Of a DNA stretch of 64,000 nt, positions 41,247 to 50,135 are shown piece after piece. This DNA comes from Phycisphaeraceae bacterium D3-23. Lineage in GTDB: Bacteria > Planctomycetota > Phycisphaerae > Phycisphaerales > Phycisphaeraceae. The notes under the pieces were generated by a model. It saw only the letters and a program-made list of their open reading frames with translations. It was not told the origin of the DNA and searched no databases. Where the stretch lies: positions 3,038,001 through 3,102,000 of the forward strand of contig CP114179.1 in NCBI GenBank assembly GCA_039555135.1. Direction: 5' to 3'. The translations under genes and the position numbers were made by a program. Position 1 is the stretch's first letter. Each line of letters starts with the position of its first letter.

Positions 41247-41666
41247 CTACTCCACGGGCCGGTCGTTGAGTTCTCGCAGCTGCCGGGCGTGGTCCAGCAG
41301 GGCGTCGGTGTCCACGTCCTCAGCAGCTTGTGCGGGTTCGAGGGCAAAGGACCAGCTGCGTTCGACCCGCTGGCCGGGGATCGCCTCGGCGAACAGGTCT
41401 GGGCCCGGGTGTTCCCACCACGGCTGGTCGAGCTGCTGCTCGGTATGCAGGGTCTGGTAGCCCGCCATCTCGAGCCGGACGTCGTAGGTGCCGTACCACG
41501 TGAAGGGCACGGTCACGGGGGTTCGGCCGACCTCCTGGTCATTTAGATAGACCAACGCCCCGGGCGGGTCGGAGTCGATGCTGAGCACCCGCTGGACACA
41601 GCCCGTCGAGAAGAGGGCGGTGAGGGCGAGCGTAGCGATGGCGATCGGGGGTGTGGGTCGTGCCAT
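41247..41666 (-). CDS. PEGA-domain lipoprotein
   Basis: 139 residues. Lipoprotein signal IATLALTALFSTGC with Cys23 as the lipidation site. The PEGA motif region is VLSIDSDPPGALVYLNDQEV, GRTPVTVPFTWYGTYDVRLE and MAGYQTLHTEQ, a beta-sandwich found in surface and S-layer-associated proteins. The C-terminal part is an acidic helix (EDVDTDALLDHARQLRELND). It probably sits on the periplasmic face and binds other envelope proteins or glycans. It is followed by the DUF971 gene (44 bp) on the same strand and preceded by a short palindrome and recX. Confidence 0.85.
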   Translation of the reverse strand: MARPTPPIAIATLALTALFSTGCVQRVLSIDSDPPGALVYLNDQEVGRTPVTVPFTWYGTYDVRLEMAGYQTLHTEQQLDQPWWEHPGPDLFAEAIPGQRVERSWSFALEPAQAAEDVDTDALLDHARQLRELNDRPVE

Positions 41667-41690
41667 GGGCGGGATTGTAACGCGGGGGGG

Positions 41691-41715
41691 AGCCCACGCT
41701 CAACGAGCGTGGGCT
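41691..41715. repeat. short palindrome AGCCCACG-CTCAACGAG-CGTGGGCT
   Basis: A 25-bp element with arms AGCCCACGCTC/GAGCGTGGGCT, between recX and the PEGA lipoprotein gene. The same design (GCCCACGGTC..GACCGTGGGC, with the central bases A/T-CGA) occurs inside thiC at 48463-48485, so the two are likely one family. Confidence 0.7.
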
Positions 41716-41743
41716 TCGGGGGGGCTTGGATCGGTGGGTGCGG

Positions 41744-42457
41744 CTAGTAAGAACCTGTGTCATCGTCGTCCCCCGCGCGGAGTTCGTCGCGCAGGGTTTC
41801 CATGACGTGGCGGATGGTGTCGCTCTTGAAGCCGCGCCGCGCGAGCTGGCCGTAGAGCCGGCGGTAGCGGGCGTCGGGGTCGAGCCGGCGCATCGCGCCG
41901 ATCTTCTTCTCGGCAAACGCGAGGGCGGTGTCGCGCTGTTCGTCGGGGTCGTCGGTCGCTTCCGCGACGAGCTTGTCGGCGAGCGACCCGCTGATGCCTT
42001 TAGCGAACAGCTTCTGCTTGAGCAGCATCGGCCCGGCGGGCTTGCGCGACATCTCGGCGCGGACGAGCATCCGGCCGAACTGCTCGTCGTCGATGAGGTC
42101 GAGCTGTTCGAGGCGTTCGAGCACGGCCGCGCGGGTGCCGGCCGAGTGGTCGAGCTGGCGGAGCTTGTCGTCGATCATCCGCCGGCTCATCGCGCGGCGG
42201 GCGAGGCGTCGCGTCGCGGCGCGGAAGGCCTTGTCAAACCCCTTGGCGTCCTCGACCTGTTTGGCGAGCGTGTCGTTCCAGGGCTGGCCTTTGTAGAGCC
42301 CGAGGTCGTTGATGAGCCGGGTGTTGAGGGTGGCGACGACCTTGCCCTTCGTGCCGGCGTCGGGGTCGCCGACGCGGACCATGGTGCGGTGGCTGTCGCG
42401 CGCGGTGGGTGAGAGCGAGAGGATCTGCAGCCGGGCGTCGGTGGGGAACAGTGTCAC
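41744..42457 (-). CDS. recX: RecX family regulatory protein
   Basis: 237 residues from GTG 42457, giving VTLFPTDARLQIL; no good ATG gives the full protein. RecX-type three-helix repeats fill residues about 75-225: RLARRAMSRRMIDDKLRQLD, VLERLEQLDLIDDEQFGRML, GPMLLKQKLFAKGISGSLAD and RRLYGQLARRGFKSDTIRHV. RecX binds RecA filaments and restrains them. The first 70 residues (TKGKVVATLNTRLINDLGLY) resemble the N-terminal extension seen in many non-enterobacterial RecX proteins. recA itself is not in the window. A divergent palindrome at 42499-42573 separates it from the DinB-like gene. Confidence 0.88.
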   Translation of the reverse strand: MTLFPTDARLQILSLSPTARDSHRTMVRVGDPDAGTKGKVVATLNTRLINDLGLYKGQPWNDTLAKQVEDAKGFDKAFRAATRRLARRAMSRRMIDDKLRQLDHSAGTRAAVLERLEQLDLIDDEQFGRMLVRAEMSRKPAGPMLLKQKLFAKGISGSLADKLVAEATDDPDEQRDTALAFAEKKIGAMRRLDPDARYRRLYGQLARRGFKSDTIRHVMETLRDELRAGDDDDTGSY

Positions 42458-42498
42458 GGTGCTACGATAGCAGTGTTGGCAGGGATGTACGACAACAC

Positions 42499-42573
42499 GT
42501 TTAGCCGCCGCCCAGCGGGCGGCGCGCCTCCGCTCGATCCAACGACGCGCCGCCCGCTGGGCGGCGGCTAAAC
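42499..42573. repeat. 75-bp palindrome, GTTTAGCC tips, GCCGCCCAGCGGGCGGC arms
   Basis: The left arm is GTTTAGCCGCCGCCCAGCGG and the right arm CCGCTGGGCGGCGGCTAAAC. The arms are nearly 30 bp each, with a ~17-bp centre. The outer GTTTAGCC tips are shared with the palindrome at 6653-6781, whose arms differ inside. It lies between divergent recX and the DinB-like gene. Confidence 0.85.
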
Positions 42574-42597
42574 ATTTCACGCGAAGGGAGCCCACCG

Positions 42598-43179
42598 ATG
42601 ACTGACGATCTTGGCACGGTAGTCCTGGCCAGCGCCCGCGAGACCTTCGTGTCGCAGCGCGGGCTCGCGGACCGCGCGATCGCGCAGGTGTCGTTTGCGC
42701 AGCTCCGGCAGGTGCTCGACCGTGACGGCAACAGCGTGGCCGTCATCATGAAACACATGGCGGGCAACATGCGCTCGCGCTGGACTCAGGTGCTGACGAG
42801 CGATGGCGAGAAGCCGTGGCGGCATCGCGACACGGAGTTTGTCGACGACTACACCGACCGCGACGCGCTGGAGAAGGACTGGGCCTCGGGCTGGTCGGTG
42901 CTGCTCGAAACGCTTGATCGGCTCACGGGCGACGACCTCGCCCGGGACGTCTACATCCGCAGCCGGCCGCTGACGCTCGCCCGCGCGATCCACCGGCAGA
43001 TCGCGCACTACGGCTACCACGTCGGGCAGATCGTCAGCCAGTGCAAACGCCTGGCGGGCGACGACTGGGCCTACCTCAGCGTCCCGCGCGGCGGGTCCGA
43101 GGCGTACACCCGGTCGCTCCAAACCCCCAAGGAGCACGGCGAAAGCAGGGGCCCAGGCGAAAACACCGAAACCGCGTAG
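42598..43179 (+). CDS. DinB-like DUF1572 protein
   Basis: 193 residues. The four-helix DinB fold of the DUF1572 group shows VSFAQLRQVLDRDGNSVAVI, MKHMAGNMRSRWTQVLTSDG, WSVLLETLDRLTGDDLARDV and HRQIAHYGYHVGQIVSQCKR. His53 of MKHMAGN and the two His of IAHYGYHVGQ are the expected metal ligands. Related proteins are metal-dependent transferases (some use bacillithiol or mycothiol), but the activity of this subgroup is unknown to me. It is cytoplasmic. The tail is rich in Gly/Glu and probably flexible. Confidence 0.85.
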   Translation: MTDDLGTVVLASARETFVSQRGLADRAIAQVSFAQLRQVLDRDGNSVAVIMKHMAGNMRSRWTQVLTSDGEKPWRHRDTEFVDDYTDRDALEKDWASGWSVLLETLDRLTGDDLARDVYIRSRPLTLARAIHRQIAHYGYHVGQIVSQCKRLAGDDWAYLSVPRGGSEAYTRSLQTPKEHGESRGPGENTETA

Positions 43180-43269
43180 GCCCGGCGGGCGTATTGAGCG
43201 TAGAGTTATCCAGGGAAAGCGACGCGTCCCGGCGACCTGCGGACGTGCAAACATATCGGAGCCGCCACG

Positions 43270-45321
43270 ATGACATCAACGCCTCGGATCGCCCGTGTCC
43301 TGCCCGCCTTGCTCGCGCTGGTGTTGTCGGCCGGGCTTCCCGGTCTCGCGAGCGCATCCGCCGTACCCGAATCGCTTGTCGCACTCAACACACAGACCAC
43401 GGCCTTGGCCGAGCCGTGCCGAAGCGCGACGGTCGGGATCATGATGCCCGGCGGCGGGATGGGCAGCGGCGTCATCATCAGCGAAGACGGTTTGGTTCTG
43501 ACCGCGGCGCACGTGCTGCCCGAGGTCGGCGGCGCCATCACGATCGTGCTGCACGACGGCCGACAGGTCGCCGCCCAAGCGCTGGGCGCGAACCGCCAGG
43601 TCGACTCGGGCATGGCCCGCATCACCGAAGAAGGGGTGTACCCCTTCGCGCCCGTCGCCGAGGCCGGCGGGCTGTGGGAGGGCGACTGGTGCATCGCGTT
43701 TGGCCATGCCGCAGGGATCCAGACCGACCGCCCCGCGCCGATGCGCCTGGGCCGGATCGTCCACGTCTCGAGCCGCGCCGCGATGACCGGCGCGATCACG
43801 ACCGACTGCACCGTCGTGTCGGGCGACTCGGGCGGCCCGCTCTACAACATGGCCGGCGAAGTGATCGGTATCCACAGCAACATCGAGATGAACGTGCTGG
43901 TCAACCGGCACGTGCCGATCGACGTCTACCACGCGCAGTGGGACGCGCTGCTCGAACCTAACGAGATCAGCGCGATGCCGCAGGGCGCGGGCTCCGTTAT
44001 CCCCGGCCTCGAGGCGCTGCCCGAGAACATCCAACGCGAGATCACCCGCCGCATCGAGGACGGCGACACCGCGCTGCGTGACGCGATCGAGGAAAGCCGG
44101 GACGCCACCGGCAAGGTCGATCTCTCGCCCGAGGAACTGGCGACGCTGCTGGGCCGAGAGGACTTGATCGCGACGATCCGCGAGTATGAGGAACGCCTCG
44201 ACGCGCGCGAGCGGCGGACGGCCGAGCTCAACGCGATGGAGGGCTCGCCGCTGGGCGATGGGCCCGACGCGATTGATGAGCGCCTGGCCGAGACGCGGCA
44301 GTTCCTGCGCCGCACGGCGCGTCAGCGCGCGCTCGCCGAGATCGCCGACGACCTGCGGCGGGCGCACGGCAAGATCGCCGACCACGTGATCGCGCAGTAC
44401 GACGATGTGACCGCCGGGGCGGGGCCCTGCACGGTGGAGGTCGTCTGCCAGCGGCGCGTCGTCGCGCTGGGCACGATCGTCCGCGCCGACGGCTACATCA
44501 TCACCAAGGCCAGCGAGCTCAACGGCCCGGTTGCGGTGCGGATGCACGACATGGACTACGACGCCCGCATCGTCAACGGCGACTGGGCCAACGACATCGC
44601 GATGCTGAAGATTGATGCGCAGGAACTCACGCCCGTGCGCTGGTCGGCCGCGCCGCCGGTGCTGGGCGAGCTTGTGGTCGCGCCGGGCGCGGACGGCATG
44701 CCGCTCGCGCTGGGTACCATCGGCGTTGATGCTCGGCCGATCCCCGAGCGCGTCAACAACCTGCGCGAGGCCGCGCCGTCGGGCCCGTTCCTCGGTGTGT
44801 CGGGCGCGACCAACGCGAGCGGCGCACGCATCGAAGCCGTCATCCCCGGCACACCGGCCGAAACCGCAGGGCTCCTCGCCGGCGACATCATTACCGCCAT
44901 CGGCGAAGAAGCCATCGCCGGCCAACGCGCACTCGTGCAGGTGCTCGGCGAGAAAGAGATCGGCGAGACGCTGACCCTCACCGTCCGCCGCGGCGAGGAA
45001 GACGAGGCCGAAGAGCTTGAACTCGAAGTCACGCTCGGCGACCGCGCCGACTTCGCCGAGCCCGCGCCCGAACAGCAGGGGCCCAGCGCGGCCGAGACCT
45101 ACAGCGCCCGCGGCGGCAAGCTCTCGGGACGACGCACCCGCTTCCCCATGGCGATCACTCACGACACCATCATCTGGGCCGGCGACATCGGCGGCCCGCT
45201 CTTGAACCTCGAAGGCGAAGCCGTCGGCCTCAACATCGCCCGCTACGGCCGGACCGCGACCTACTCGATCCCCGCCGACGTCGTGCAGGGCGTCGTCGAG
45301 AGGATGCTGGCGGGGCACTGA
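43270..45321 (+). CDS. double-domain HtrA-like serine protease with PDZ inside a dead second protease domain
   Basis: 683 residues. Signal peptide at about 1-30 (VLPALLALVLSAGLPGLASA). The first trypsin-like domain is intact: His81 (LTAAHVLPE), Asp112 (VDSGMARI), Ser187 (VVSGDSGGPLYN). A helical linker follows (about 250-370). The second protease-like domain (about 380-500) has ITKASELN where the His should be, keeps Asp in NDIAMLKID, and is interrupted by a PDZ domain (about 505-600: GPFLGVSGATNA, GTPAETAGLLAGDIITAIGE). It then resumes with WAGDIGGPLLNLEGEAVGLN, where the Ser position is Ile. It ends YSIPADVVQGVVERML, as HtrA protease cores do. It is exported and likely acts in envelope protein quality control. 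A paralogue follows at 45488. Confidence 0.88.
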   Translation: MTSTPRIARVLPALLALVLSAGLPGLASASAVPESLVALNTQTTALAEPCRSATVGIMMPGGGMGSGVIISEDGLVLTAAHVLPEVGGAITIVLHDGRQVAAQALGANRQVDSGMARITEEGVYPFAPVAEAGGLWEGDWCIAFGHAAGIQTDRPAPMRLGRIVHVSSRAAMTGAITTDCTVVSGDSGGPLYNMAGEVIGIHSNIEMNVLVNRHVPIDVYHAQWDALLEPNEISAMPQGAGSVIPGLEALPENIQREITRRIEDGDTALRDAIEESRDATGKVDLSPEELATLLGREDLIATIREYEERLDARERRTAELNAMEGSPLGDGPDAIDERLAETRQFLRRTARQRALAEIADDLRRAHGKIADHVIAQYDDVTAGAGPCTVEVVCQRRVVALGTIVRADGYIITKASELNGPVAVRMHDMDYDARIVNGDWANDIAMLKIDAQELTPVRWSAAPPVLGELVVAPGADGMPLALGTIGVDARPIPERVNNLREAAPSGPFLGVSGATNASGARIEAVIPGTPAETAGLLAGDIITAIGEEAIAGQRALVQVLGEKEIGETLTLTVRRGEEDEAEELELEVTLGDRADFAEPAPEQQGPSAAETYSARGGKLSGRRTRFPMAITHDTIIWAGDIGGPLLNLEGEAVGLNIARYGRTATYSIPADVVQGVVERMLAGH

Positions 45322-45364
45322 TCTCGTCGGCTGGGGGCAGGTAATCCTGTCTGTCAGCGATAAA

Positions 45365-45464
45365 GTAGGACAGGCATTCCTGCCTGTCATCAGGCCGAAG
45401 GCCTGAGCATCGTTACAAGTCCACTTCGGCTGCGCCGAATGACAGGCAAGAATGCCTGTCCTAC
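45365..45464. repeat. 100-bp palindrome, AGGACAGGCATTCCTGCCTGTC family
   Basis: The left arm starts GTAGGACAGGCATTCCTGCC and the right arm ends GGCAAGAATGCCTGTCCTAC. The inner CAGGCCGAAGGCCTGAG and TTCGGCTGCGCCGAA are shared in form with the palindromes at 52632-52732 and 62259-62368 (there GGGGCAGACATTC tips). It lies between the two paralogous proteases; an extra GGTAATCCTGTCTGTC precedes it at 45341. Confidence 0.82.
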
Positions 45465-45487
45465 CGTTTGCATTCTTGGAGCCCCCT

Positions 45488-47557
45488 GTGCCCGACACCC
45501 AACGCATGAACCCCCTCACCCGCTTCGTCTGCTCAGCACTCGTGCTCCTGACCGCTGCGCTGCTCGCGCCGCCCGCGCTCGCCCAGCCGGCCGCTGCGGT
45601 GGAGCAGGACACCGCACTCGCGCACGTCGAAGAGCGCGCCCGCGCTATCGCGCCCAACGCGATCGGCGCGGCCGTGGGCATCATCGTCCGCGACGCCAAC
45701 GGCGCGGGATCGGGCAACGGACGCGGCATGGGCAGCGGCGTCATCGTCAGCGAAGACGGCCTCATCCTCTCCGCCGCGCACGTCGTACTCGCGCCGGGCG
45801 CAGAGCTCATCATCATCCTCGCCGACGGTACCCGGGTCGCCGGCGAAACGCTCGGCGTGGACCACGACGTCGACGCCGGCATGGCCCGCATCACCGAGCC
45901 CGGCGACTACACCTTCGCCCCCGTCGCGGCCCAGGGCGACTTCGCCGTGGGCGACTGGGTCCTCGCCGTCGGACACGCCGGCGGCATCCAGACCGACCGC
46001 CACCCGCCCCTGCGCCTGGGCCGGCTGCTCCACCACATCGACGACGACGACGAAGAACTCTTCGGCAACCTCGCCTCCGACTGCACCGTGATCTCCGGCG
46101 ACTCGGGCGGCCCGCTCTACAACCTCGCCGGCGAAGTCATCGGCATCCACTCCAACATCGGCATGCGCGTCACCGAGAACCGCCACGTCGCCATCGACGA
46201 GTACCACGAACGCTGGGACGCCTTCGTCGCCGGCGAAGACCTCAGCACGAACCCGCACCGCGAGCCGATCGACCCCGTTGATGCCGAGGACCTCGAAGAC
46301 CTTGTCGACGAAGACGGCAACCCCATCAACCCCGCCGACACGGATGGCGACGGCGCGATCTCCGACGAAGAGGCCGCGCGCAACGTCATGCGCATGAACC
46401 TCTACCAGCAGTTCTCCCACGTGCTCACGCGCGACGAGATCGAGCTGCTGATGAGCGTCGCGATCGTCGGCGATAACGGCCAGATGCAGCTCGACATCAC
46501 CCCGCAAAACTTCGCGGAGGTCTCGGGCGTGCTCGAAAAACTCAACGCCGCCCAGCAGCAGGGCGCACGCATGCCCGGCCCGCTCCCACGCCGGGCGCTC
46601 CGCTACACCCGCACCGGCGAGCAGGTCCGCCCGATGCTGGACCCGATCGCCGAGCAGGGTGGCCAGAGCGTCGTCGCCGTCCGCAGCGGCACGCAGTACG
46701 TCGCGCTGGGCACCGTCGTCGGCGAAGGGCTGATCCTCACCAAGGCCAGCGAACTCGACAGCGACACCCTCGCGATCCGCGTCGGCCGGGTGCGGCGCGA
46801 GGTCGAACTGGTCGGCGTCGATGAGGCGACCGACCTCGCGCTGCTTCGCGTCGAGCGCTCCAACGGCACGGCTCCCGTCAAGTGGTACGCACACGACCTC
46901 GAGCCCGGCGACCTGCTGGGCACGCTGCTCGTCTCGCCCAACGCCGACGGCGAGCCGCTCGCGCTGGGCGTTGTCAGCGTCGAGACCCGCGCTATCCCGC
47001 AGACGATCCAGAGCATCGGCAACGGCAACACCGCGTTCCTCGGCGTGTCGGGGCTGGGCGGCAGCGGCTCGGCCGTCATCCAGGAAGTCATCGAGGGCGG
47101 CGCGGCCCAGGCGGCGGGCATGCTCGACGGCGACGCCATCGTCCGCATCCAGGACATGACGATCGAGAACCACACGGACCTGGTCGAGGCGATCGGCCAG
47201 TTCGAGCCGGGCACGACGATCGAGATCGAGGTGCTGCGCCGAGGCGCGTCGGTGGTGATGCACGCGACGCTGCAGGACGCGACGGGCAAGTTTGATATGG
47301 ATGCCAACGACGACCTCCCGACCGCGCAGCTCAGCCGACAGGCCGGTGCGATCAGCGCCCGGCGGACCGACTTCCCTGCGGCGTTCACCCACGACAGCGT
47401 GGTCTGGGCGGGCGACATGGGTGGCCCGCTGCTCGGGCTCGACGGCACCTGCATCGGCATCAACATCGCCCGCTACGGCCGAACCGCGACCTACGCGATC
47501 CCGGCGGACGAGGTCCAGCGCGTGCTCGCGGAGTTGTTGGCCGGTGAATCGGAATGA
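45488..47557 (+). CDS. double-domain HtrA-like serine protease with EF-hand linker and PDZ-split dead domain
   Basis: 689 residues from GTG 45488 (GGAG 7 nt upstream; an ATG at 45506 is the alternative). Signal peptide VCSALVLLTAALLAPPALAQ. First domain triad: His98 (LSAAHVVL), Asp129 (DVDAGMARI), Ser206 (VISGDSGGPLYN). The linker has an EF-hand loop at about 284-295 (DTDGDGAISDEE), absent from the upstream paralogue. The second domain has LTKASELD instead of the catalytic His and GDMGGPLLG instead of the Ser motif, with a PDZ (FLGVSGLGGSG, GGAAQAAGMLDGDAIVRIQD) inserted before it. It shares architecture with the 43270 protein, so this is a tandem duplication. The exported role is probably envelope proteolysis with a regulatory second module. 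Confidence 0.88.
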   Translation: MPDTQRMNPLTRFVCSALVLLTAALLAPPALAQPAAAVEQDTALAHVEERARAIAPNAIGAAVGIIVRDANGAGSGNGRGMGSGVIVSEDGLILSAAHVVLAPGAELIIILADGTRVAGETLGVDHDVDAGMARITEPGDYTFAPVAAQGDFAVGDWVLAVGHAGGIQTDRHPPLRLGRLLHHIDDDDEELFGNLASDCTVISGDSGGPLYNLAGEVIGIHSNIGMRVTENRHVAIDEYHERWDAFVAGEDLSTNPHREPIDPVDAEDLEDLVDEDGNPINPADTDGDGAISDEEAARNVMRMNLYQQFSHVLTRDEIELLMSVAIVGDNGQMQLDITPQNFAEVSGVLEKLNAAQQQGARMPGPLPRRALRYTRTGEQVRPMLDPIAEQGGQSVVAVRSGTQYVALGTVVGEGLILTKASELDSDTLAIRVGRVRREVELVGVDEATDLALLRVERSNGTAPVKWYAHDLEPGDLLGTLLVSPNADGEPLALGVVSVETRAIPQTIQSIGNGNTAFLGVSGLGGSGSAVIQEVIEGGAAQAAGMLDGDAIVRIQDMTIENHTDLVEAIGQFEPGTTIEIEVLRRGASVVMHATLQDATGKFDMDANDDLPTAQLSRQAGAISARRTDFPAAFTHDSVVWAGDMGGPLLGLDGTCIGINIARYGRTATYAIPADEVQRVLAELLAGESE

Positions 47558-47913
47558 TTAGTCCAGATGAGTACAAGGCGACGTGGGATCGTGGCATAAA
47601 GGAGGCAGAAGCGGATATCGCTTCCGAGACTCCGAAGTATTTCTGGGGATTTTGTGGCGCGTGGGGTGAGCGGTTCGTCGAGTTGTTCCAAGAGCGTTTT
47701 GGTATCACCCCAATCTCAAAGGGTGATCTCAGAAGGCAGCAAGACGAGGTGTATGAACACACCTATAACAAGACGATAGAAGCATACGCGGCAGCCAAGT
47801 TTGGTAAAGACGCGATCAAAGAAACGCTGGATGAAGTCTACGCCTACCGTGCAGAGATTCACAAGCAGCATCGTGGACTAGGAAACCCTGATAAGAGTAC
47901 GTCGCAAGGCTGA
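47554..47913 (+). CDS. small hypothetical protein, AT-richer than its surroundings
   Basis: 119 residues; ATG 47554 overlaps the stop of the upstream protease (ATGA), so it is translationally coupled. It is hydrophilic and helical with aromatic clusters (PKYFWGFCGAWGERFVELFQ, ERFGITPISKGDLRRQQDEV, ETLDEVYAYRAEIHKQH), with no signal or membrane segment and no recognised domain. Base composition is near 50 % G+C by eye, against about two-thirds around it, and the codons differ (AAG, GAT, ACA frequent), pointing to a foreign origin. It stands directly before the TPP riboswitch of thiC. Confidence 0.7.
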   Translation: MISPDEYKATWDRGIKEAEADIASETPKYFWGFCGAWGERFVELFQERFGITPISKGDLRRQQDEVYEHTYNKTIEAYAAAKFGKDAIKETLDEVYAYRAEIHKQHRGLGNPDKSTSQG

Positions 47914-47965
47914 GTTTGCAATTGTTGCTTGCCGCACTGCTCTATTCCGCCTATCCTTCAACACA

Positions 47966-48094
47966 CTCGCCAGGGGTGCCCCCGGATAAGCCGGCGCGGC
48001 TGAGACAGTCCCTTGGAACCTGATCGATCACCCCGGTCGATTTGTCTTGACGCCAGTCGTCGGGCAACTTCCGGGGGTCGCGTAGGGAGGCGAG
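47966..48094 (+). promoter_or_regulatory. TPP riboswitch (THI element) controlling thiC
   Basis: P1 is CTCGCC (47966-47971) with GGCGAG (48089-48094). The conserved core follows: AGGGGTGCC (47972-47980), GCTGAGA (47999-48005), CCTTGGAACCTGATC (48011-48025) and GCGTAGGGA (48080-48088). The GGCTGAGA and CCTGATC/GCGTAGGGA blocks bind the pyrimidine and pyrophosphate ends of thiamine pyrophosphate. The segment 48026-48079 (54 nt) is much longer than the usual ~15 nt and forms an extended arm (GATCACCCCGG with CCGGGGGTC). The aptamer ends 91 nt before the thiC ATG, so TPP probably blocks translation initiation or promotes termination there. Confidence 0.93.
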
Positions 48095-48185
48095 CCACCG
48101 CCGAACTCGCGCCGACTCTCGGCACGTTCCACCGGCCACGGCGCCGCTTCCCGCTACGTCTCCCGCAGACGAAGGAAGCCAAGCC

Positions 48186-50135
48186 ATGACCGCCACACCA
48201 AACACACCGCTCAACCCCGACGGCACCCGCACCATCGACCCGGCGGACTTTATGCTCCCCCCCGTCGGCGGCGACCCGGGCACCGAGACCACCACCACCC
48301 CCGGCTCCTTCGCCAACCCCGCCGTCATCCTCCCGGGGGTCCGTGGCGCGAAGACCTACAGCTCTCCCGACACCCCCGGCATGCCCGCGCCCTCCACCAA
48401 GACCGCGTGGGACTTCCTGCCCGAGGGCTGGGCAACGGGCGAAAACGGCCGCGCCAACGCAAGCCCACGGTCATCGACCGTGGGCGTCGAGACTGTGATG
48501 TTCACCCAAGCCGACGGCACCCCGCGCACCGTCACCTACCCCGCAGACTTCACCCCCATCACCCAGCTCGAAAGCGCGCGCCTCGGCATCGTCACCCCCG
48601 AGATGAAGCGCGTCGCCGAGCGCGAGCCGCATCTGACGGCCGAGCAGGTCCGCGACGAGATCGCCGCGGGGCGCATGGTCATCCCCGCGAACACCGTCGC
48701 GCTGGGTTATGACTTGGACCCGATGTGCATCGGCCGGGCGAGCAAGACGAAGATCAACGCGAACATGGGCGCGAGCCCGGTGTCATCGTCGCTCGATGAA
48801 GAGGTCGAGAAGTTGAAGTGGGCCGAGCAGTGGGGGGCCGACACGGTGATGGACCTGTCGACCGGCGGCGACCTCGACGCGACACGCGACGCGATCATCC
48901 GAAGCTCCACCGTCCCCATCGGCACGGTCCCGATCTACTCGATGATCATCGGGAAAAAGATCGAGGATTTGGACAAGCAGATCATCATGGACGCCGTGAA
49001 GCTCCAGGCCGAGCAGGGCGTCAGCTACTTCACGATCCACGCGGGCATCAAGCGCGAGCACGTCCGCTACGCCAAGGACCGCTTGATCGGCCTCGTCTCC
49101 CGCGGCGGGTCGCTGCTGGCCAAGTGGATGATCCACCACAACAAAGAAAACCCATTCAACACCGCGTGGGAAGATATCTGCGGCGTCATGCGCGGCTACG
49201 ACATCACCTTCAGCATCGGCGACGGCTGCCGGCCCGGCGGGCTGTCCGACGCGACCGACACGCTCCAGCTCGCCGAGCTCGTCGAGATCGGCAAGCTCAC
49301 CGAACGCGCCTGGCGCTGCGGCGTGCAGGTCATGGTCGAAGGCCCGGGCCATGTCCCGCTCGACCAGATCGAATACAACATGAAGATCGAACGCACGCTC
49401 TGCCACGGCGCGCCGTTCTACGTCCTCGGGCCGCTCGTCACCGACGTGTTCCCCGGCTACGACCACCTCACCAGCGCGATCGGCGCGACCAATGCCGCCT
49501 ACCACGGCGCGTCCATGCTCTGCTACGTCACCCCCAAGGAACACCTCGGCCTGCCCAAGAAGGGCGATGTGAAAGAGGGCTGCGTCGCCTACAAGATCGC
49601 CGCCCACGCTGCGGACGTCGCACTGGGCATCCCGGGCACCCGTGACTGGGACGATGAGCTCACCAAGGCCCGCGCCGCGCTCAACTGGGAGAAGCACTTC
49701 GAGCTGGCCTTCGACACCGACACCGCCCGCGCCTATCACGACGAAGATATGGACGTCGACACCGACTTCTGCGCGATGTGCGGCCACGACTGGTGCAGTG
49801 TCCGCATCTCCAAAGAGATCCAGGAGTGGGCCAGCGGAAACGCCGAGGGTTTTGAGCGCAACGGCGACGGCCGGACCGTGAAGTCCGACGCCCTCACCCC
49901 CGAGCAGCAGAAGATCCTCGAGCAGCGCGGCTACCTCTCGCCCGAAGAGATCCACAAGCTCGCGGCGAAGAAAAAGAAGAAGCTCGTCGCCGTTGAGGGC
50001 GCCGATGAACCCGCCCCGTCCTGCCACAGCGACTATGTCGACCCTGACGCCGCCGAGCAGCTCAAGCAGCAGGAACTCGTCCAGCTCAACACCGCCGAGG
50101 CGCACGGCTTATCGAAAAACGACAGCGTGATCTAA
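48186..50135 (+). CDS. thiC: phosphomethylpyrimidine synthase ThiC
   Basis: 649 residues. Radical-SAM-type enzyme making hydroxymethylpyrimidine phosphate from aminoimidazole ribotide, the pyrimidine branch of thiamine synthesis. Signatures are NANMGASPVSSSLDEEVEKL, WGADTVMDLSTGGDLDATRD, PIGTVPIYSM, DYFTIHAG-type VSYFTIHAGIKREH, IVSRGG-type LVSRGGSLLAKW, EGPGHVPLDQIEYNM, GYDHLTSAIGA and the C-terminal cluster motif CAMCGHDWCS (about 529-538), the CxxCxxxxC for the [4Fe-4S] cluster. AAGGAAGCC precedes the ATG. The N-terminal ~85 residues contain an in-frame palindrome. The tail (~90 residues, KKKKKLVAVEG) is longer than usual. Regulated by the upstream TPP riboswitch. Confidence 0.96.
   Translation: MTATPNTPLNPDGTRTIDPADFMLPPVGGDPGTETTTTPGSFANPAVILPGVRGAKTYSSPDTPGMPAPSTKTAWDFLPEGWATGENGRANASPRSSTVGVETVMFTQADGTPRTVTYPADFTPITQLESARLGIVTPEMKRVAEREPHLTAEQVRDEIAAGRMVIPANTVALGYDLDPMCIGRASKTKINANMGASPVSSSLDEEVEKLKWAEQWGADTVMDLSTGGDLDATRDAIIRSSTVPIGTVPIYSMIIGKKIEDLDKQIIMDAVKLQAEQGVSYFTIHAGIKREHVRYAKDRLIGLVSRGGSLLAKWMIHHNKENPFNTAWEDICGVMRGYDITFSIGDGCRPGGLSDATDTLQLAELVEIGKLTERAWRCGVQVMVEGPGHVPLDQIEYNMKIERTLCHGAPFYVLGPLVTDVFPGYDHLTSAIGATNAAYHGASMLCYVTPKEHLGLPKKGDVKEGCVAYKIAAHAADVALGIPGTRDWDDELTKARAALNWEKHFELAFDTDTARAYHDEDMDVDTDFCAMCGHDWCSVRISKEIQEWASGNAEGFERNGDGRTVKSDALTPEQQKILEQRGYLSPEEIHKLAAKKKKKLVAVEGADEPAPSCHSDYVDPDAAEQLKQQELVQLNTAEAHGLSKNDSVI
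48463..48485. repeat. short palindrome inside thiC
   Basis: GCCCACGGTC-ATC-GACCGTGGGC lies in the thiC reading frame (encoding part of ASPRSSTVGV). It has the same layout as the intergenic element at 41691-41715. It keeps the frame and sits in the variable N-terminal region, so it is probably a tolerated insertion. Confidence 0.6.

Follow-up and report, generated by a model that had tools for sequence, protein, structure and literature searches.

This analysis concerns two tandem genes of the planctomycete Phycisphaeraceae bacterium D3-23 (assembly GCA_039555135.1, contig CP114179.1), situated in a stretch of 64,000 nucleotides (positions 3,038,001 to 3,102,000 of the forward strand) that is called the window hereafter. 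Each gene codes for a protein in which an active trypsin/HtrA-like barrel is followed by a second barrel that has lost the catalytic His and Ser and is interrupted by a PDZ domain. Such a pseudoprotease unit is usually encoded by a separate gene, and the window shows a fused and duplicated form of it. Proteins 1 and 2 share the same architecture and are 44% identical; the signal peptide of protein 1 was called by eye. The features that matter for the argument are the following, in window coordinates.

43270..45321, forward strand: gene of protein 1, 683 amino acids, with a signal-peptide-like N-terminus, an active trypsin/HtrA barrel, a helical linker, and a pseudo-barrel with inserted PDZ
43390..43959, forward strand: active S1 (HtrA-like) barrel of protein 1 (Trypsin_2, E 5e-33; His81/Asp112/Ser187)
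44380..44745, forward strand: pseudo-barrel part 1 of protein 1 (residues 371-492; N-lobe and two C-lobe strands)
44782..45042, forward strand: inserted PDZ of protein 1 (residues ~505-591; PDZ_2, E 1.1e-13; model strands and PDB profile alignment)
45103..45312, forward strand: pseudo-barrel part 2 of protein 1 (residues 612-681; phmmer match to HTRA1, model)
45452..47557, forward strand: gene of protein 2, up to 701 amino acids
45659..46237, forward strand: active S1 barrel of protein 2 (Trypsin_2, E 1.6e-28; His110/Asp141/Ser218 in the 701-residue numbering)
46628..47008, forward strand: pseudo-barrel part 1 of protein 2 (residues ~393-519; Ser replaces the His in TKASEL)
47027..47269, forward strand: inserted PDZ of protein 2 (residues ~526-606; PDZ_2, E 2.7e-11; model)
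47342..47548, forward strand: pseudo-barrel part 2 of protein 2 (residues ~631-699; GDMGGPL, in which Met656 replaces the Ser; NIARYGR; C-terminal helix)

A first-pass annotation, made from the sequence, had described an intact trypsin-like domain in both proteins, followed by a dead copy with Ser at the His position (TKASEL) and GDIGGPL or GDMGGPL at the Ser motif, and all of this is indeed seen in both. Its catalytic numbering is right for protein 1, and the triad His98/Asp129/Ser206 that it gave for protein 2 is right if translation starts at GTG 45488. In part 1 of the pseudo-barrel of protein 1, Ser415 occupies the His position and Asp442 is retained, accompanied by the invariant residues Lys413 and Arg489. 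Part 2 comprises, in this order, the remainder of the sensor loop L3 (GGKLSGRRTRFP), ITHD, GDIGGPL, NIARYGR, and a C-terminal helix. Across the pseudo-domains, no His-Asp-Ser triad is present, with Ser at the His position, Ile, Met, or Cys at the Ser position, and only the Asp kept.

Several lines of evidence support that the segments before and after the PDZ form one HtrA-type barrel, as had been proposed for the final strands. Pfam places PDZ_2 at residues 506-583 of protein 1 and 530-600 of protein 2 and breaks Trypsin_2 in two around it, and in a phmmer search residues 612-673 of protein 1, located after the PDZ, align to residues 144-205 of the HTRA1 protease chain. A profile built from 78 active domains matches all of the 82 pseudo-domains collected in this study in two blocks, nearly always with profile positions ~20-125 ahead of the PDZ and ~149-178 behind it. 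A 68-member profile of the family aligns to residues 94-200 and then 204-264 of a DegP-like PDB chain, hence to a contiguous stretch, with 112 profile positions skipped in between. AlphaFold2 models of protein 1 (window 44362-45318; mean predicted local distance difference test score, pLDDT, 92.7; predicted template modelling score, pTM, 0.76) and of protein 2 (window 46604-47554; mean pLDDT 89.5, pTM 0.77) both predict a single barrel built from the segments that flank the PDZ. Compared by VIA-align with DegS-deltaPDZ (2rce_I), the two models superpose over 176 of 198 residues (Z 23.7, root-mean-square deviation 2.9) and 177 of 198 residues (Z 23.1, root-mean-square deviation 2.3), respectively, in either case from before to after the PDZ. 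The result as a whole goes far beyond chance. That the GDxGGPL segment instead folds on its own and leaves the second barrel incomplete is thus hardly credible, and this reading is rejected in view of both models and of the profile split in 82/82 members.

By profile as well as by fold, HtrA/Deg proteins are the closest solved structures (E down to 1.8e-53 for the pseudo-domain profile against the PDB), and profile and VIA-align agree on a two-lobe trypsin-like barrel of the HtrA/Deg (S1C) type. The PDZ, however, is not C-terminal as in the usual HtrA layout but lies among the barrel strands, between the strand GVVSVxxR and the motif GGxLSxRRxGFPxxLQHD. In HTRA1, L3 consists of residues 298-307/310 and includes Arg302 (PMC5666011), and E. 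coli DegP, DegQ, and DegS carry an Arg at Gly+7, as does protein 1 with Arg489 after Gly482. Since the flanking motifs and Arg489 match the L3 position of HTRA1 Arg302 and of DegP/Q/S, the PDZ is inserted at the root of L3. Counted between Arg489 and the GG of this loop, the insert is 96-127 residues long (median 107, 82 members). Ten planctomycete HtrA-type proteases that are not partners of a pseudo-domain, as well as E. coli DegP, DegQ, and DegS, are continuous at this point and have no PDZ there, which bears out the claim that the layout is an unusual one.

The pseudo-domain is dead by the triad criterion, yet its old active site is highly conserved with new residues rather than decayed. 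In a set of 49 representatives that share less than 60% identity (~39% on average between pairs), and in protein 1 numbering, Lys413, Asp442, Arg489, Asp632, Arg658, and Arg661 are present in 49/49, Ser415 and His631 in 48/49 each, and Cys at the Ser position in 44/49. Loss of the canonical triad, and in the window copies also of the Cys common in the family, is what a functionless, decaying remnant of a duplicated protease might look like. More than 12 invariant residues at such low identity, which make purifying selection evident, reading frames that are open and long in many of the phylum's families, and persistent pairing with an active protease speak against it; simple decay is rejected by this conservation and is given very little credence. 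A somewhat better, though still improbable, explanation is that the catalytic site has been rebuilt, either to hold a ligand or cofactor or as a new centre of catalysis; Lys413, Ser415, Asp442, His631, Cys640, and Arg658/Arg661 would then bind a metal, an anion, or a redox signal. These residues rank among the protein's best-conserved positions, Cys occupies the nucleophile position in 76/82 pseudo-domains, and MamO, itself an HtrA pseudoprotease, binds transition metals (PMC4794232). However, the catalytic His is a Ser, His631 aligns to the Thr of the canonical QTD motif and not to a triad position, and the Cys is lost in protein 1 (Ile640), in protein 2 (Met), and in others while the rest of the pattern is intact. 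A cysteine protease is likewise unlikely, because no His stands at the triad position and the window clade lacks the Cys.

Inserted-PDZ pseudoproteases constitute a monophyletic family across the sampled Planctomycetota, and the search for this architecture elsewhere, which the first-pass annotation had called for, recovered it in many genomes of the phylum. A scan of named genomes yielded 80 loci, nearly all with Planctomycetota titles and including the cultivated Blastopirellula marina DSM 3645; four loci (L061, L091, L096, and L126) have titles of the Verrucomicrobia type, the occurrence outside the Planctomycetota being based on record titles alone. In a sample of the phylum, 64/392 genomes match at E<=1e-40. 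Of the 82 pseudo-domains, 65 are encoded directly downstream of, and on the same strand as, an active protease with the GDSGG motif, and 13 are fused to one. Three of the remaining four begin at a contig end, which leaves one orphan among 79 testable cases. The active barrels of the window proteins and of these partners are trypsin-like domains with an intact triad, judging from Trypsin_2 matches and from the residue counts in the partners (His 77/78, Asp 77/78, Ser 78/78). The genome of strain D3-23 (4.62 Mb) also holds the split version, consisting of an active protease with an appended PDZ (locus L003, 1300-2385) and, 50 base pairs downstream of it, a pseudo-domain that stands alone and carries the inserted PDZ (L003, 2436-3494). 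When the genes flanking the 80 named loci were clustered, no third member of the operon emerged; among the other neighbours, a gene read in the divergent direction is the most frequent (25 loci). Fusions are of three kinds, namely protease-linker-pseudoprotease in the window clade, protease-PDZ-pseudoprotease as in L075, and giant forms with several PDZs (L134, L135, L136, and L137; 927-1143 amino acids), in which an active barrel and one or two PDZs precede a pseudo-barrel broken by two to three tandem PDZs. A further protein of 815 amino acids (L138, 987-3434) contains three trypsin-like stretches, the last of which matches the inserted-PDZ pseudo-domain.

Active partners and pseudo-domains differ in what they have kept of L3. 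In the partners, the Asp of the TD motif follows the Gly of strand beta8 at a spacing of 13 residues in 69/78, 12-15 in three more, and 18-20 in six members of the window clade, compared with 22 in E. coli DegP/Q/S. Protein 1 belongs to the latter six:

43750..43806, forward strand: beta8-beta9 stretch with shortened L3 in the active barrel of protein 1 (Gly161 to Asp179, spacing 18)

An Arg at Gly+7 is found in 6/78 active partners versus 82/82 pseudo-domains, so that the partners, by spacing and by residue, generally lack an L3 with the activating Arg. The pseudo-domains conserve L3 as GGxLSxRRxGFP, and the ten non-partner planctomycete proteases have a complete VSxxxR-L3-QTD stretch. The LD region of the partners is conserved as GHPGGxxxxRxPxxRxGR, with two invariant Arg residues (Arg154 and Arg159). 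In a tree of barrels without their PDZs, pseudo-domains, partners, and canonical HtrA proteases form three strongly supported groups, the pseudo-domains lying on the canonical side, with a tentative branching order given an unknown root and long branches that meet. An origin of the pseudo-domain by recent tandem duplication of its partner finds no support in this topology, which is suggestive at best. As a separate observation on the active barrels, Cys180 of protein 1 (43807-43809) directly follows the TD motif and is shared by 69/78 active partners (TDC...GDSGGP); the position is Ala in E. coli DegP/Q/S.

From the established fold, insertion point, near-obligate pairing, and conserved, remodelled former active site, the architecture suggests a protease in two parts, the dead one serving as its built-in regulator. 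We consider it about an even bet (probability roughly 0.5) that the pseudo-domain is an HtrA-derived, dedicated non-catalytic partner that regulates, or senses substrates for, the adjacent or fused active HtrA-like protease. The first-pass annotation had surmised a regulatory sensor, and the near-obligate pairing, the position of the PDZ at L3, and the loss of L3 from the active partner lend this surmise indirect support. In HtrA proteases, activation runs from the PDZ or the substrate via L3 to the LD of the neighbouring protomer (PMC11252331), and the R302A exchange in HtrA1 abolishes activity (PMC5666011). In the proposed mechanism, the pseudo-barrel and the active barrel would associate, which is the most certain of three steps and is made likely by pairing and fusion. 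With less certainty, the inserted PDZ would bind the C-terminus or an exposed peptide of a damaged envelope protein. In the last and least certain step, binding would shift the sensor loop of the pseudo-barrel together with Arg489, which takes the place of HTRA1 Arg302, and thereby stimulate the LD of the active barrel. As the active barrel is without a long L3 and Arg of its own, the two subunits would share a single HtrA activation circuit between them.

The boldest version of this proposal is an obligate hetero-oligomeric stress protease, a split HtrA in which the active subunit has retained the triad and a remodelled LD and lost L3, the pseudoprotease has retained L3 with its Arg, taken the PDZ into this loop, and lost catalysis, and each active site depends on the L3 and the ligand-bound PDZ of a pseudo-subunit. 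We put this forward tentatively and regard it as appreciably less probable than the general regulatory role. On a par with it stands the possibility that the pseudo-barrel is mainly a scaffold for oligomerisation and substrate docking, as reported for trimerisation by the degenerate domain of plant DEG7, with the PDZ as an extra docking site and no signal passing through L3. Fused and split forms both exist, as would be expected of a physically associated scaffold, and the giant, divergent proteins have extra PDZs in the same loop without the VSxxxR motif. A scaffold, however, leaves unexplained why Lys, Ser, Asp, His, and Arg residues around the old active site are conserved and why L3 has been lost in complementary fashion from the active partner.

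Several observations weigh against a regulatory partner that acts through L3. One stand-alone pseudoprotease (L105, 2193-3407) has no active protease within 2.1 kb upstream, and it is the only such case among contigs of sufficient length to reveal a partner. In L134-L137 the VSxxxR motif is absent and the Cys is mostly replaced, although the pairing persists, and the active barrels of the window clade, with their L3 of medium length (18-20), have lost this loop only incompletely; the step in trans through L3, already more speculative than the association of the barrels, is weakened by both. Invariant Arg residues occur on the LD of the partner as well as on the L3 of the pseudo-domain, by which direct contact is not obviously favoured. 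Finally, TKASE and NIAR served as search patterns, and their conservation is partly built into the 80-locus set; both are nevertheless also kept in members found by profile, and the patterns do not include Arg489, His631, Asp632, Cys640, or Arg661.

The start of protein 2 and the linker of this protein involve two additional features.

45369..45460, strand not assigned: intergenic paired palindrome resembling repetitive extragenic palindromic (REP) elements, overlapping ATG 45452 (identified by genome copy count)
46334..46372, forward strand: linker loop of protein 2 that resembles an EF-hand, DTDGDGAISDEEA (EF-hand_5, weak at E 0.05)

Depending on the start codon, protein 2 has 701 (ATG 45452), 689 (GTG 45488), or 683 amino acids (ATG 45506). 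Because ATG 45452 falls within the REP-like repeat, ATG 45506 is preferred and is the likeliest start. The two palindromes of the repeat are 20 base pairs each (GACAGGCATTCCTGCCTGTC ... GACAGGCAAGAATGCCTGTC) and have 34 copies in the genome at <=1 mismatch, several of them paired ~70 base pairs apart, versus none for the reversed control. The EF-hand-like loop is kept in the orthologue at locus L054 as DTDGDGTISDAEA and possibly constitutes a Ca2+ input. Genes around the pair (41250-50132) are ordinary, coding for a PEGA-domain protein, RecX, a DUF1572/DinB-like protein, and ThiC, and within this interval they show no sign of membership in the protease/pseudoprotease system.

Allostery that PDZ domains control and loops relay among identical subunits has its textbook example in the HtrA proteases. 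If L3 and the PDZ reside on a dead subunit and catalysis on another, the signal would be separated from catalysis and the relay from L3 to LD could be tested subunit by subunit. In that case, a widespread, unannotated protease-pseudoprotease pair would join envelope protein quality control in Planctomycetota, and the family would provide a natural instance of domain insertion at an allosteric loop.

Our literature search found no paper that describes an inserted-PDZ pseudoprotease, and none of the 12 families in a survey of 7,852 microbial PDZ proteins has this architecture (PMC6411480). The NCBIfam HtrA subfamilies do not cover it either, since P0001 as a whole scores 165.7 bits and its pseudo-domain 94 bits against a cut-off of 416.2 for TIGR02037, and the other listed models are also below their cut-offs. 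With HtrA/Deg proteins (DegP, DegQ, DegS, and HTRA1) the pseudo-domain shares the trypsin-like barrel, an HtrA-type PDZ with LGV start, the position of the L3 Arg, and the QxD and GGP motifs, whereas its PDZ lies within L3 instead of at the C-terminus, the catalytic His and Ser are replaced, and it stands beside, or is fused to, a separate active barrel. Plant DEG7 likewise combines an active and a degenerate HtrA barrel with PDZs in one chain (PMC3473262), as the window proteins do, but in the order PD-PDZ-PDZ-PDia-PDZ-PDZ (PD, protease domain; PDia, degenerate protease domain) with appended PDZs, in contrast to PD-linker-PDia(N)-PDZ-PDia(C) here and to a unit that is usually a separate gene. 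In magnetotactic bacteria, the active HtrA protease MamE has an HtrA pseudoprotease partner, MamO, which activates it non-catalytically (PMC4794232). MamO differs in phylum and architecture, having a TauE-like transporter domain, for which Pfam scans of the present proteins gave no match, and a surface di-His metal site. The S41 proteases Prc/Tsp and CtpA/CtpB also contain a regulatory PDZ inserted into the protease domain (PMC6686036), though in an unrelated fold with an active Ser/Lys site rather than a trypsin-like barrel without triad; no S41 domain was matched by Pfam at or near the cut-off. SpoIVB (S55) combines a PDZ with a trypsin-clan protease, and a strand of the PDZ enters the protease core (PMC12502668), but SpoIVB is a protease whose PDZ is N-terminal in sequence (PMC6581720), whereas in the present family the PDZ interrupts the sequence of the barrel itself. 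In fold and ancestry the pseudo-domain thus belongs to HtrA/Deg, and DEG7, MamO, Prc, and SpoIVB share one aspect each with it.

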